NCBI GenBank assembly: GCA_016874755.1
Contig: VGTH01000027.1
Span: forward strand, 1-64,000
Source of the DNA: Deltaproteobacteria bacterium
GTDB taxonomy: Bacteria; Desulfobacterota; Binatia; UBA9968
Length of the DNA stretch: 64,000 nt
Reading direction: 5' to 3'
Shown: positions 15,658-20,282 of the stretch, piece by piece
Layout of the letters: each line of letters opens with the position of its first letter
How positions within the stretch are numbered: position 1 is the stretch's first letter
Notes under the pieces: model-generated
Told to the model about the DNA's origin: nothing
Seen by the model: the letters and a program-made list of their open reading frames with translations, nothing else
Database searches by the model: none
Position numbers and translations under genes: made by a program

Positions 15658-15933
15658 TCACACCAAGCGTTTGAGCAATCGGTGAATGGTCTTGTTCTTG
15701 CGGATTTCCCGCTTCAAGCCGGCAAGATGAGACTCACTGAGAATCAACGGCCCACCCTGATAGAATCCTTCGTGGTAGTAGCAAAAACGCAGCGACTTCT
15801 CGCCCGAGTCGAACGATAGCAGCTGAATCGAAGGCTCGTGATACTGCGTTTGGGAGCGAGCCTCCTCGCTGATCCAGCCTTCGCCCCAATGCAGTTTAAA
15901 GCGTCTTTTGCCGACAGTTTTGGTTTTCTTCAT
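15658..15933 (-). CDS. Small conserved-looking hypothetical protein
   Basis: About 91 residues, basic at both ends, with an aromatic centre (FCYYHEGFYQGGP) and a C-terminus rich in Lys and Arg (KREIRKNKTIHRLLKRL). The codon use and amino-acid pattern look like real coding sequence and no overlapping frame is better. The start at 15933 has GAGAG five bases before it; an ATG three codons upstream is also possible. Family unknown. Confidence 0.55.
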   Translation of the reverse strand: MKKTKTVGKRRFKLHWGEGWISEEARSQTQYHEPSIQLLSFDSGEKSLRFCYYHEGFYQGGPLILSESHLAGLKREIRKNKTIHRLLKRLV

Positions 15934-16056
15934 AGCTCTCATCGGTATAGTCGAAGCGTGCCCGACGTGTCCAACAGGAGTGTGGCCAGCCTTCGGCCGC
16001 TAGACCGAGCTCTAACGCCATGGTATGAAACGGGGCAATTGTCCAAGGAGCTCACT

Positions 16057-16437
16057 ATGGCAAAACGCAAAAGCATCCACATCAAAGGCATGGAACATGG
16101 CGCACCGATCCCCAACGGTGCGGTGCTCGGCAACGTAGTTTTCTCTTCAGCGATCGGCGGTAAAGACGCGAAGACCGGCGTGTTGTCCGACGACCCCGAC
16201 GAGCAGGCCGCAGCGATGTTCCGCAATCTGGAACTCTTCATGGAAAGCGTCGGCGGCACGCCGGCCAACATCGGCTACATGAAGGTCTATTTAAAGGACG
16301 AAAAATACCGCGACAACGTCAACGGCCCCTGGCTCAAAATGTTCCCCGACGAGCACGACCGCCCGGCGCGCCATGCGATCAAAGTCGACCTGCGCGGCAA
16401 GAATTTATTTCAAATCGAAGTGATCGGGGTGCTGTAA
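16057..16437 (+). CDS. RidA/YjgF family protein
   Basis: 126 residues. RidA proteins hydrolyse reactive enamines and imines formed by PLP enzymes, as trimers in the cytoplasm. Seen: the conserved VVFSSAIGG, the QAAAMFRNLELFMESVGG helix, VYLKDEKYRDNVNGPW, and RPARHAIKV with the substrate-carboxylate-binding Arg. The ATG has AAGGAG upstream (16045-16050). The C-terminal Glu region is shortened to FQIEVIGVL, as in several RidA subfamilies. A cupin gene remnant follows in frame directly after its stop. Confidence 0.88.
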   Translation: MAKRKSIHIKGMEHGAPIPNGAVLGNVVFSSAIGGKDAKTGVLSDDPDEQAAAMFRNLELFMESVGGTPANIGYMKVYLKDEKYRDNVNGPWLKMFPDEHDRPARHAIKVDLRGKNLFQIEVIGVL

Positions 16438-16479: not shown

Positions 16480-16680
16480 ATCTTCAACACCAAACGCTTT
16501 CACGCCTGGATGCATTATTATAAGCCGGGCCAGAAAGACGACATGCATTGCTACAACGCCGACCAGACGTTCTACGTCATCGTGACGCAACTGTGCCGGC
16601 TGTTCCAAAGCGGTCGCGCTTGGCAGATCAGGCACAGCCGGAGTTCTTTTTCGGGAACTTTTCGCGGCGCTGGGAGTTAA
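16480..16680 (+). pseudogene. Broken cupin-domain gene fragment
   Basis: After an intergenic repeat word (GCGCAAAGACGCCAAGGGCGCAAAG) the sequence reads FNTKRFHAWMHYYKPG and DDMHCYNADQTFYVI, the usual beginning of a small cupin with the metal-site His/Glu region altered (HCYNADQ). It then loses homology. A neighbouring frame ends as PEFFFGNFSRRWELTP before TAA at 16684-16686, which may be the original C-terminus. This suggests an internal deletion with frameshift. The N-terminus and ribosome site are missing. It sits between ridA and the DUF3179 gene. Confidence 0.55.
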
Positions 16681-16710
16681 CCCCATAAATCCCTTCCGAC
16701 GAGGAGTTCC

Positions 16711-17727
16711 ATGGGGCCGCGCATTAGCAGATTTCTCGCGCCATTTTTCTTTGGCGTTTGCCTAGTCTCCTCCGCTCCAGCCCAGCACCGCTCCCGGCAG
16801 GACATTGAGAAAGAATATCTCGCCCACGCGCAGCAGGCGGTGCCGCGCGATGCTTTTCCCGTGCTGCTCAACCCAGCCATGGGAACAGTGGCCGACGGCG
16901 ACAAGCTATTTCAGGCCAATGAATGGATCATCGGCGTTGCCATCAATGGCGAGGCCAAAGCCTACCCGGTCACGGTGATGGGCATCCATGAGCTGATCAA
17001 CGACAAGGTGGGAGGCCAGCCGATCACGGTCTGCTGGTGACCGCTCTGCCAAACGGTTGTCGTGCACAACCGTAACCTCAACATTGCCGGCAAAAGCACG
17101 ACCTTGGAATTTGGCCACGAGGGCGTGCTCTACCGCCAGTCGTTCATCATGTACGACAAGCAAACCGACACCAAGTGGAATCATTCCACGGGCCTCGCCA
17201 TGTTCGGCAAACTCACCGGCATGCGGCTGGAAATTTTGCCGAGCTGGGTGGTGCGTTGGGAGCAATGGAAGGCCATGCATCCGACGACGAAAGTCCTGGC
17301 GCGCGAAGGGCGCGGCGGCTTCATGGGCACCTACGTCGCGGATCGCAATTTTGCTGAGTTCGGCCTCAGCGTCGGTCAGGGACCCCAGGCCAAGCTCTAT
17401 CCGTACGATCTGCTGGCCAAACGGGAGGTGGTCAACGACACGGTCGCGCCGCACGCGCTGGTCGTCACCTTCGACCCCGCGCACAAGCAAGCCATGGCGT
17501 TTTCACGCAAGCTTGGCGCGCAAGACTTAAGCTTCGAGCCCGGCAAAGAACCCAATCCGCGCAGTCTGATCATGCGCGACCGTGAGACCTCCAGCCTCTG
17601 GGATCGCCTGAGCGGCAAAGCCGTCGAGGGGAAAATGAAAGGCAAGAGCCTGCAACCCTTGATTGCCGTTCCCTGGCTAAAAGAACGCTGGCGGCAGATC
17701 TATCCAGAAGGAATTGTCTACAAATAG
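16711..17727 (+). CDS. DUF3179 exported protein, candidate selenoprotein (Sec110 by UGA)
   Basis: A single frame of 338 codons runs from ATG 16711 (GAGGAG upstream) to TAG 17725-17727, interrupted only by TGA 17038-17040. DUF3179 proteins carry a conserved T-Y/W-CPLC motif; here the reading is VCW-[UGA]-PLCQT, so UGA stands exactly at the first Cys and gives UxxC. Both sides match the family: AYPVTVMGIHELINDKVGGQP before, then MYDKQTDTKWNHSTGLA, WKAMHPTTKVL and SLWDRLSGKAVEG after. The N-terminus is a signal peptide (FLAPFFFGVCLVSSAPAQ), so the protein acts outside the cytoplasm; its function is unknown. A hairpin follows the UGA (17053-17073). If Sec is not inserted, this is a nonsense-mutated gene. 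Confidence 0.7.
17053..17073 (+). promoter_or_regulatory. Candidate bacterial SECIS hairpin after the DUF3179 UGA
   Basis: ACGGTTGT (17053-17060) pairs perfectly with ACAACCGT (17066-17073) around a 5-base loop CGTGC. The stem starts 12 bases after the UGA and the loop lies 20 bases after it, with G as the second loop base. Distance, stem length and loop G fit the published bSECIS pattern for SelB recognition. Functional proof is lacking. Confidence 0.6.
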
Positions 17728-18022: not shown

Positions 18023-19330
18023 TCACTCGGCGTCGCCGTCGGCGTTAAAAGTTACCTTGCGCAGCAGCATGTTCTTATCGCTCAATATTTCGATGTCGAC
18101 GCTCGGACGCTCGCGCTCGGCGTTGACCGTGACCAAAGCGTAATTGAACACTTCGTTGTTGAAGTACTCGAAGCGCTTTGCCGTGCCCGAGGCTTTGCCC
18201 ATTGGCGCACCCAACGGTCCGGTGATGATCTCCCGCAGCACTGGGGCACCCGGCACTCTCACAACCGCCGCATAGTGCACATCGGCTGTCAGAAATATCA
18301 CGCCGCGAATCGGCTTTTTCTTGATTGCCGCCAACACTTCGTCGCGATCCGCAGGGTAGCCGCCCCACTTGTCCGCGGAAGGACTGGAAAACGGCACCGA
18401 GGTGCAGACAAACTTGAACCGCGCATCCGAGCTGGCAAGCCCATCAAGAAACCACCGCATCTGTCGCGGTCCAAGAATCGCCCCGGCCGCCTCGTCACGG
18501 TACTGCCGCGTGTCGAGGACAAACAATTCCGCCGCACTGCCCCAACGAAGCGAACGGTACAGGCGGTCGGGATCGGTGGGGTCCTGCCGCACCGGCCAAT
18601 ATTCCATGAAGGCGCGGCGTCCGAGCGGCGCCAAAGGATGCGCCGCGCGATAATTATCAGAAACTTCGTGATCGTCCCAAGCGACCACCAGGCTCGCCTC
18701 GGCCAGCAAGCGCTGCGTCGGCGCGTCCTTGCGGTTGATCACGTACTTATTGCGAAACTGCTCCAGCTGGCGCGCCACACCCTCACGGTCTGCATAGATC
18801 GTGTCGCCAAGGTGCATGAAGAAATCCGGCTGTTTGTTGCGGATCGCATCCATGATCGAGAACGGCTGAAAATTCTGCCGCGTATCGCCGCTAAACGCGA
18901 AGCGCACATTGGCCGGCTGATCGGCGCGCGGCGCGGTCACGAAGCGCGCAATCGGCCCCGGCCTGCGATTCTCCACCAGCGCGCGATAATAGTAGGTTGT
19001 TCGCGCATCGAGCCCCTGCAGCACCACTTTTCCCGTGAAGTCCGCGGCAGTTAAAAGTTTAGCAGGCGCCGATCTCTGCGCATTTGCGAGCGCTGGATCT
19101 TTACCATACTCGATAACCCCCGCGCCTTCGCGCTCACCGCGCAACCAGATCACCGCACCGTCGGCCGCAACGTCCCCGGCCGCACAAGGCAGCGACAACC
19201 CCGTGTCTTGCAGCGGCTCTGCCGCAGCCACTTTAGACGGCGCGAGCCATGGCGGCATGGCGGCGCTCGCCGCGGCTGCGCCGGCCATCGCTAGAAACCT
19301 ACGTCGGCTAACGCGTCGTCTTCGCAACAT
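18023..19330 (-). CDS. phoD: PhoD-type alkaline phosphatase / phosphodiesterase, Tat-exported
   Basis: 435 residues. A twin-arginine signal (SRRRFLAMAGAAAASAA) directs folded export. An N-terminal Fn3-like domain follows, then the metal-binding phosphatase core: FAFSGDTRQ, MHLGDTIYADRE, VVAWDDHEVSDNY, LFVLDTRQYRD and LTADVHYAAVV. PhoD enzymes hydrolyse phosphomonoesters and diesters with Ca and Fe in the periplasm. No Pho box is obvious upstream. It is transcribed alone. Confidence 0.9.
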   Translation of the reverse strand: MLRRRRVSRRRFLAMAGAAAASAAMPPWLAPSKVAAAEPLQDTGLSLPCAAGDVAADGAVIWLRGEREGAGVIEYGKDPALANAQRSAPAKLLTAADFTGKVVLQGLDARTTYYYRALVENRRPGPIARFVTAPRADQPANVRFAFSGDTRQNFQPFSIMDAIRNKQPDFFMHLGDTIYADREGVARQLEQFRNKYVINRKDAPTQRLLAEASLVVAWDDHEVSDNYRAAHPLAPLGRRAFMEYWPVRQDPTDPDRLYRSLRWGSAAELFVLDTRQYRDEAAGAILGPRQMRWFLDGLASSDARFKFVCTSVPFSSPSADKWGGYPADRDEVLAAIKKKPIRGVIFLTADVHYAAVVRVPGAPVLREIITGPLGAPMGKASGTAKRFEYFNNEVFNYALVTVNAERERPSVDIEILSDKNMLLRKVTFNADGDAE

Positions 19331-19361: not shown

Positions 19362-20282
19362 CTAGCCCATTGCAAACACCTCACCCAACGCCTCCAACTG
19401 CTCGGCGTAACGGCACACAGGATTCAAAATCAGGTGATTCACACCGGTCACGGCGAGCTCTTCTATTTTGGCGCGGACTTGTTCCGGCGCGCCGCAAAAT
19501 CCCGACGTATCGGCGCCCTTGGGGTTGCGATAGACAATGGTAAACCAGTGTTCCAGCTCAGCGCGCGCAATGTCGGCGCGTTCGTGCACGGAGAGAAAAA
19601 CGCGCTTCGATATCGGAAATGTTGCCGGATCCCGTCCGGCCCGCCGCAGCTCCTGTTTCAAAAGCGAAATGTCTCGCTTGAATGACTCGACGCTGCCGCC
19701 GCCGGCGCCCATCCAGCCGTCGCCGATAGTCGCGGCGCGCCGGATGGCGTCCGGGTGAGTGCCGCCGAGCCATATCGGCGGGCGCGGCTGCTGCACAGGC
19801 TTGACGCCGAGCTTCGCGCCCTTGAGTTGAAAGATACTGCCGTTGAAATTGGCTTCAGGCTCGGTCCAGAGCTGTCTGATCAGCTCGACGCTCTCGCGAA
19901 ACCGCGCCACGCGCCGTTCACGGGGAACTTGAAATTCCTCATAGTGGCTATCGCGTCCCAAGCCAGCGCCAAGAATCGCCCGCCCACCGCTCAAGTAATC
20001 CAAAGTCGCCATCTGGTGCGCCACATGCACGGGATGGTGCAGCGGCAGCACGATTACCGATACCCCCAGGCGAATCCTGGTCGTGACAGCGGCCGCGTAG
20101 GTCAGCGCCACCACCGAGTCGAGGCAAAACACGTGGTCGAGGGTATTCTCCGTCACCCACAGGTCGCTGAAGCCGAGTTCTTCAGCACGTTGCGCCACCC
20201 GGCGCACCGCAGCGGCATTGATTGGGTCCGGAGACCGGTGTGGCAAAGCGAAGCCGAGGGATATGGTGTCGTTGAGAGCCAT
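19362..20282 (-). CDS. LLM-class flavin-dependent (F420/FMN) oxidoreductase
   Basis: 306 residues, luciferase-like TIM barrel. Signatures: LGFALPHRSPDP, RVAQRAEELGFSDLWVTEN, TTRIRLGVSVIVLPLHHPVHVAHQMATLDYLSGGRAILGAGLG, and PIWLGGTHPDAIRRAATIGDGWMG. Members use reduced FMN or F420 to oxidise or reduce small substrates, and the cofactor cannot be decided here. No neighbour gives the substrate. The start ATG (20282) is followed closely by the family N-terminus. Confidence 0.88.
   Translation of the reverse strand: MALNDTISLGFALPHRSPDPINAAAVRRVAQRAEELGFSDLWVTENTLDHVFCLDSVVALTYAAAVTTRIRLGVSVIVLPLHHPVHVAHQMATLDYLSGGRAILGAGLGRDSHYEEFQVPRERRVARFRESVELIRQLWTEPEANFNGSIFQLKGAKLGVKPVQQPRPPIWLGGTHPDAIRRAATIGDGWMGAGGGSVESFKRDISLLKQELRRAGRDPATFPISKRVFLSVHERADIARAELEHWFTIVYRNPKGADTSGFCGAPEQVRAKIEELAVTGVNHLILNPVCRYAEQLEALGEVFAMG

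Follow-up and report, generated by a model that had tools for sequence, protein, structure and literature searches.

Probable selenocysteine decoding of an in-frame UGA in a diverged DUF3179 gene from a Binatia genome

The gene at positions 16711-17727 of the window (the whole stretch of 64,000 nucleotides analysed here, positions 1 to 64,000 of contig VGTH01000027.1, assembly GCA_016874755.1, Desulfobacterota, Binatia) very probably encodes a selenoprotein of the DUF3179 family, itself probably exported, in which the UGA at 17038-17040 would be decoded as selenocysteine (Sec) under the guidance of an RNA hairpin. Sec at codon 110 is strongly supported by comparative sequence evidence, since the genome carries the Sec machinery, UGA and Cys codons are exchanged at this position among homologues, the UGA occurs across phyla and the hairpin that follows it covaries. 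The features of the gene and its surroundings are:

15838-16437, plus strand: RidA-like flanking gene
16701-16706, plus strand: GAGGAG, a putative ribosome-binding site 4 nt 5' of the ATG, as read from the sequence
16711-17727, plus strand: probable selenoprotein gene of the DUF3179 family, 338 amino acids with Sec as residue 110, translated with TGA as U
16711-16785, plus strand: signal-peptide-like N-terminal segment, about residues 1-25 (...SSAPAQ), assigned by eye
16987-16989, plus strand: His93 codon; H93, E94 and N97 do not vary in the 61-row and 81-row alignments
17038-17040, plus strand: in-frame TGA at residue 110, where CPLC begins; probably a selenocysteine codon, from the codons of homologues
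17047-17049, plus strand: Cys113 codon, second Cys of the UPLC motif
17053-17073, plus strand: putative bSECIS hairpin, 8-bp stem of 17053-17060 with 17066-17073
17365-17724, plus strand: second half of the protein (residues 219-338 or thereabouts), which repeats the first half without its U/C motif
17725-17727, plus strand: TAG stop of the DUF3179 gene
18023-19330, minus strand: PhoD-like flanking gene
19362-20282, minus strand: luciferase-like flanking gene

The first-pass annotation had described the TGA as the lone interruption of a 339-codon frame whose two parts both belong to DUF3179, and both statements were borne out: translation with TGA as U showed no other internal stop, and PF11376 (gathering cut-off 27 bits) matched the read-through frame with 241.3 bits and each part alone (57 bits for the part ahead of the TGA, 161 for the part behind it), with a second match at 17383-17724. 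Third-position GC was 0.73 before the TGA and 0.76 after (0.73 ± 0.04 in 34 window genes), and codon log-odds were gene-like on both sides; past the TGA, neither of the remaining forward frames nor the single reverse frame tested showed such usage. There was no NCBIfam model matching the protein at E 0.001, and no other Pfam family at E 0.01 in any of 61 DUF3179 members. The protein is probably exported, to judge by eye from its signal-peptide-like N-terminus. Among 25 further read-through frames in the window, domains were sought in the 10 that looked least like extensions of a gene's start or end: seven had no match, and the matches in the other three all lay within the frame's ordinary part. 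Ahead of the gene, at 16498-16581, a short sequence (FHAWMHYYKPGQKDDMHCYNADQTFYVI) resembles by eye a broken cupin-like gene.

The motif codon in 118 homologous loci was TGA in 32, TGC or TGT in 86, and never another codon. This alignment of DUF3179 homologues at codon 110, which the first-pass annotation had proposed, agrees with its placing of the UGA at the conserved Cys of CPLC. The count omits L021, L022 and L029 (duplicates of the genes in L034 and L035), and L032 and L033 (fragments lacking the motif). The window's protein was matched in 43 of 395 genomes drawn from the phylum, from which 30 loci were taken; a further 80 loci from named genomes are the best 80 of at least 575 found with an alignment query, the scan of named-genome contigs with the single window protein as query having given no match. 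In the window's own family, PF11376 was matched in 11 of 25 genomes, and the ten distinct loci with a readable motif comprised nine with TGA (window's gene included) and one with TGT. Among the named genomes, TGA was carried by one each of Anaerolineae, Nitrospinota, Acidobacteria and Geoalkalibacter; the UGA is thus kept in at least four named phyla besides the window's family.

This distribution bears on the possibility that a nonsense mutation or sequencing error struck an ordinary Cys-type DUF3179 gene, leaving a pseudogene or an artefact. The gene is indeed diverged, and DUF3179 was not found in four other genomes of the same genus (one of them 67% complete), but the TGA stands at the same codon in 31 other loci, eight of them from the same family, the frame holds no further stop or frameshift, codon usage past the TGA is gene-like and the residue before it, W109, is typical of the UGA type. 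We consider this explanation very improbable.

The UGA/Cys label needs five changes on a tree of 114 rows, compared to 25 for shuffled labels, and the starred branches force at least two (the bootstrap had not settled); the Sec and Cys forms of DUF3179 were therefore probably exchanged a few times. The window's protein sits on a long branch, with at most 41% identity to the 69 other rows of a reduced alignment and a best local identity of 43%, over a local stretch, in the phylum search. In the 114-row tree it groups with the long-branch L062; in the reduced tree, built without six long rows (L057, L060, L061, L062, L074, L097) and the even-numbered named Cys rows, it falls with the Sec rows of its own family (SH-aLRT 82). 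We are unsure of its placement. The short rows L031, L058, L059 and L063 were left out of the trees.

Folding placed the hairpin where the first-pass annotation had described it: an 8-bp stem beginning 12 nt after the TGA and closing the loop CGUGC (17061-17065), with G as the second base. The bSECIS element has a small apical loop containing guanosine, according to PMC1088965, and the window's hairpin fits this description as a stem-loop just after the UGA with a small, G-containing apical loop. The hairpin is present and bSECIS-like, but the weight given to it had been overstated: under bSECIS-like rules, hairpins scoring as well follow 522 of the 15,490 codons of 39 window genes, and 6 of 178 in-frame Cys codons. 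Its folding z-score was -1.1, -1.9 or -2.7, depending on the segment chosen, and Rfam gave no match in the window. Taken alone, a hairpin of this kind is weak evidence; its significance comes from the homologues.

The 24 UGA segments compared form the eight stem pairs in 79.2% of cells, compared to 31-43% for slid registers, and neither the percentage paired nor the covariation score was reached in any of 500 shuffles. Two of the five covariation measures (double-change pairs and pair types) showed no excess in these rows. The 10 Cys segments were 42.5% paired, with no excess. The UGA set comprises 24 of the 32 loci, without the near-copies L030, L042 and L063, the short L031, and L065, L072, L085 and L121, which were found later; the Cys set comprises, on the same grounds, 10 of the 86 Cys loci. 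In these alignments compensating changes preserve the stem in the UGA homologues and not in the Cys homologues. RNAalifold returned no consensus pairs for all 24 UGA segments, five pairs for a chosen subset of 14 (without L050, L052, L059 and L062, which are in another register, and six same-family rows with a C-A mismatch) and none for the 10 Cys segments.

A stem score of at least 12 was reached by 16 of 31 UGA loci and by none of the 86 Cys loci (Mann-Whitney p = 3.5e-5, the rows not being independent). The rule demands an uninterrupted stem and a loop of 3-14 nt that starts 16-37 nt after the codon and has G among its first two bases, limits which are those of the bSECIS literature; L031 was omitted as too short. 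The seven same-family UGA rows scored carry a C-A mismatch at the position of a U-A pair in the window's stem, and under the uninterrupted-stem rule six of them score 0 and one scores 4.

Gene calling that ignores Sec would either end the protein after 109 residues or place its start at the GTG at 17062. An ORF from this GTG (17062-17727) does exist, so that the locus might be read as two genes, an exported peptide of 109 residues and a second, restarted protein. The split would nevertheless fall between two strands of one hairpin, with an invariant P and L beside the codon, the GTG itself belongs to the RNA hairpin (loop and arm), and the homologues with Cys are read straight through; this reading is even less probable than a damaged gene.

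The genome containing the window (5.56 Mb, 101 contigs, 99.55% complete, 3.1% contamination) encodes SelA (600 bits), SelB (411 bits) and SelD (382 bits), adjacent on one contig (C16), and a tRNA-Sec with anticodon UCA (75.9 bits) on another (C40), all four scoring above the cut-offs. The search for selA, selB, selC and selD suggested in the first-pass annotation thus recovered the complete set. In 14 control genomes, the cut-offs were exceeded once for SelA, twice for SelB, twice for SelD and five times for tRNA-Sec. UGA terminates 12 of 34 window genes and is consequently not a general sense codon. That the organism reads UGA as a sense codon (Trp, for example) for reasons unrelated to selenium, in favour of which there is the open frame and nothing else, is the most remote of the alternatives, given these 12 TGA-terminated genes, the Cys at the motif position in 86 of 118 loci, and the Sec tRNA with SelA and SelB.

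Other genes of the genome also carry an in-frame UGA. SelD has one, in AGUAAK. The redoxin of a relative, used as query, gave 14 matches in the window's genome, 10 of them among the matches listed, and the six listed regions with one TGA were examined. In five, the UGA stands where the reactive Cys would be, at what we take to be the peroxidatic site (TPTU twice, TPGU, WUPYC and WUGKC; L164, L165, L166, L168 and L169); the sixth, L167, yielded nothing under the filter applied. Related genomes also gave many redoxin matches with one TGA. From these sequences, the window's lineage seems rich in selenoproteins. The presence of SelA was also considered as a discriminator between genomes with UGA-type and Cys-type DUF3179, and proved uninformative: it was over the cut-off in all 10 Cys-type genomes examined and not over it in 4 of 28 UGA-bearing genomes, one of which is listed as 100% complete.

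The motif of the window's protein is UPLC (residues 110-113), of the UxxC/T subtype, and besides U110 the protein holds three cysteines (C17, C108 and C113). The P and L next to the motif codon are invariant. The residue three positions after the motif codon is C in 80 of the 86 Cys loci; in the 32 UGA loci it is C in 12, A in eight, T in five, S in four and V in three. The UxxC redox pair put forward in the first-pass annotation is therefore plausible here, C113 being present, but does not seem to be general in the family, the second Cys being replaced by A, S, T or V in 20 of the 32 UGA loci. The residue just before the motif position is W in 23 of the 32 UGA loci, the window's among them (W109), and in 2 of the 86 Cys loci. 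Chemistry, ancestry or the context of the hairpin are possible sources of this preference.

In the mechanism we propose, SelB bound to the hairpin at 17053-17073 would guide the ribosome at the UGA, and Sec carried by tRNA-Sec(UCA) would enter where CPLC has its first Cys. The selenolate of Sec110 would be the reactive group of a thiol/selenol redox reaction, and might form a selenenylsulfide with Cys113; in homologues with UPLA, UPLS, UPLT or UPLV, Sec would work with no Cys at this position. The window's protein is most likely, as far as its sequence tells, an exported selenol-dependent redox protein.

Two reviews, PMC9312934 and PMC13188914, include the DUF3179 domain-containing protein (PF11376, UxxC/T) among the prokaryotic selenoproteins and cite Zhang and Gladyshev 2007 for it. 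The gene is therefore a new member of a catalogued selenoprotein family, and the first-pass suggestion of a new selenoprotein does not stand at the level of the family. The catalogued Sec-DUF3179 proteins, compared here by description, share with the window's protein the Pfam family and the kind of motif (Sec, then C or T three residues on); to the homologues aligned here the window's protein is at most 41% identical (43% over a local stretch). The Cys-type DUF3179 proteins of Chloroflexota, Thaumarchaeota and other phyla have the same domain and differ in the Cys at the aligned codon, the rarity of the preceding W and the lack of a conserved hairpin in the 10 segments aligned, with a stem score below 12 in all 86. 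The call made from raw sequence was correct, and it adds a diverged member to a little-studied selenoprotein family.

The AlphaFold model of the whole DUF3179 protein had a pLDDT of 87.8 (below 50 at residues 1-15), and a separate model of residues 39-214 had 91.0. The protein is predicted to consist of two similar domains, with Sec110 at a turn joining two strands of the first. Both halves resemble Rieske-fold proteins in these models: for 3gce, Z was 8.0 with the first half (rmsd 2.9, 95 aligned) and 8.9 with the second (model residues 224-324, rmsd 2.9, 94 aligned), values which, near 8, may mean only a common arrangement according to the tool's warning. All 50 listed rows in each of the two structure searches were Rieske-fold proteins by title and aligned range. 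Foldseek itself gave no match at E ≤ 0.001, a search for solved relatives by sequence gave one chance-level row (E 0.84), and hhalign of the 114 DUF3179 rows against 20 sequences from Rieske-matching loci of the genome (one of them, L160, a wrongly cut fragment) gave a probability of 0.3. The cluster ligands CxH...CxxH of Rieske proteins are absent from the window's protein, which has no CxH. The likeness to Rieske ferredoxins and NirD-type proteins would thus be one of modelled fold in both halves, with neither ligands nor profile similarity, a resemblance and not membership.

Sec as a Rieske cluster ligand was considered and rejected. Its appeal was that H93 and U110 lie 17 residues apart and that CPLC resembles CPxH; the His and Cys of Rieske proteins are likewise 17 residues apart. 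In the first-half alignment with 2qpz (model 41-145 with chain 2-96, 93 aligned), U110, which is residue 72 of the model of residues 39-214, falls at or before about chain residue 35, ahead of the cluster loops with ligands 44, 46, 63 and 66 (counted on the sequence, assuming that the entry numbering follows it). The genome has 43 matches to the Rieske family PF00355, all above the cut-off (L144-L163 among them), which may reflect a large oxygenase repertoire. There was no publication combining Rieske and DUF3179 among the matches listed in a full-text literature search.

None of the genes flanking the window's gene suggests a function for DUF3179, and no AhpC/TSA redoxin was found beside it. 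In five genomes of the same family (G002, G005, G014, G016 and G021; pairs at L025, L026, L027, L031 and L035) an AhpC/TSA-type redoxin is encoded no more than about 1.5 kb 5' of DUF3179(Sec), in the same orientation, and an extra ORF separates the two in G014 and G016 (L027 and L026). These redoxins carry an in-frame UGA in the motif WUPYC (WUPDC in G014, L027), so that two selenoprotein genes would stand close together; Pfam (AhpC-TSA) was run on those of G005, G014 and G021. The AhpC/TSA-family Sec peroxiredoxins are a separate Pfam family with a UPYC-type motif like that of the window's protein. Three genomes (G003, G018 and G023) had no close relative of this redoxin beside DUF3179 among the matches listed; the contig of G018 ends at the DUF3179 gene, and G023 has a TlpA-like redoxin lacking a TGA on the opposite strand. 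Recurrent neighbours of DUF3179, assigned by eye, were TlpA-like (four loci), CcdA-like (three) and disulfide-reductase-like (seven).

The predicted Rieske-like fold, the dispensable partner Cys and the Sec-redoxin neighbourhood together suggest a concrete redox role for DUF3179. Sec-DUF3179 might be a periplasmic selenoenzyme of two ligandless Rieske-like domains with the selenol on a different loop, forming in this family a two-selenoprotein relay with the neighbouring Sec redoxin (WUPYC). We hold this rather unlikely as a whole; were it true, most Sec forms, lacking the second Cys, would receive the partner thiol in trans.

Near the Cys-type DUF3179 of nine loci labelled as Thaumarchaeota or relatives (L073, L076, L086, L088, L090, L091, L096, L111 and L120) there is a conserved small ORF resembling a membrane protein, which in L120 (1217-1696) directly follows the DUF3179 gene.
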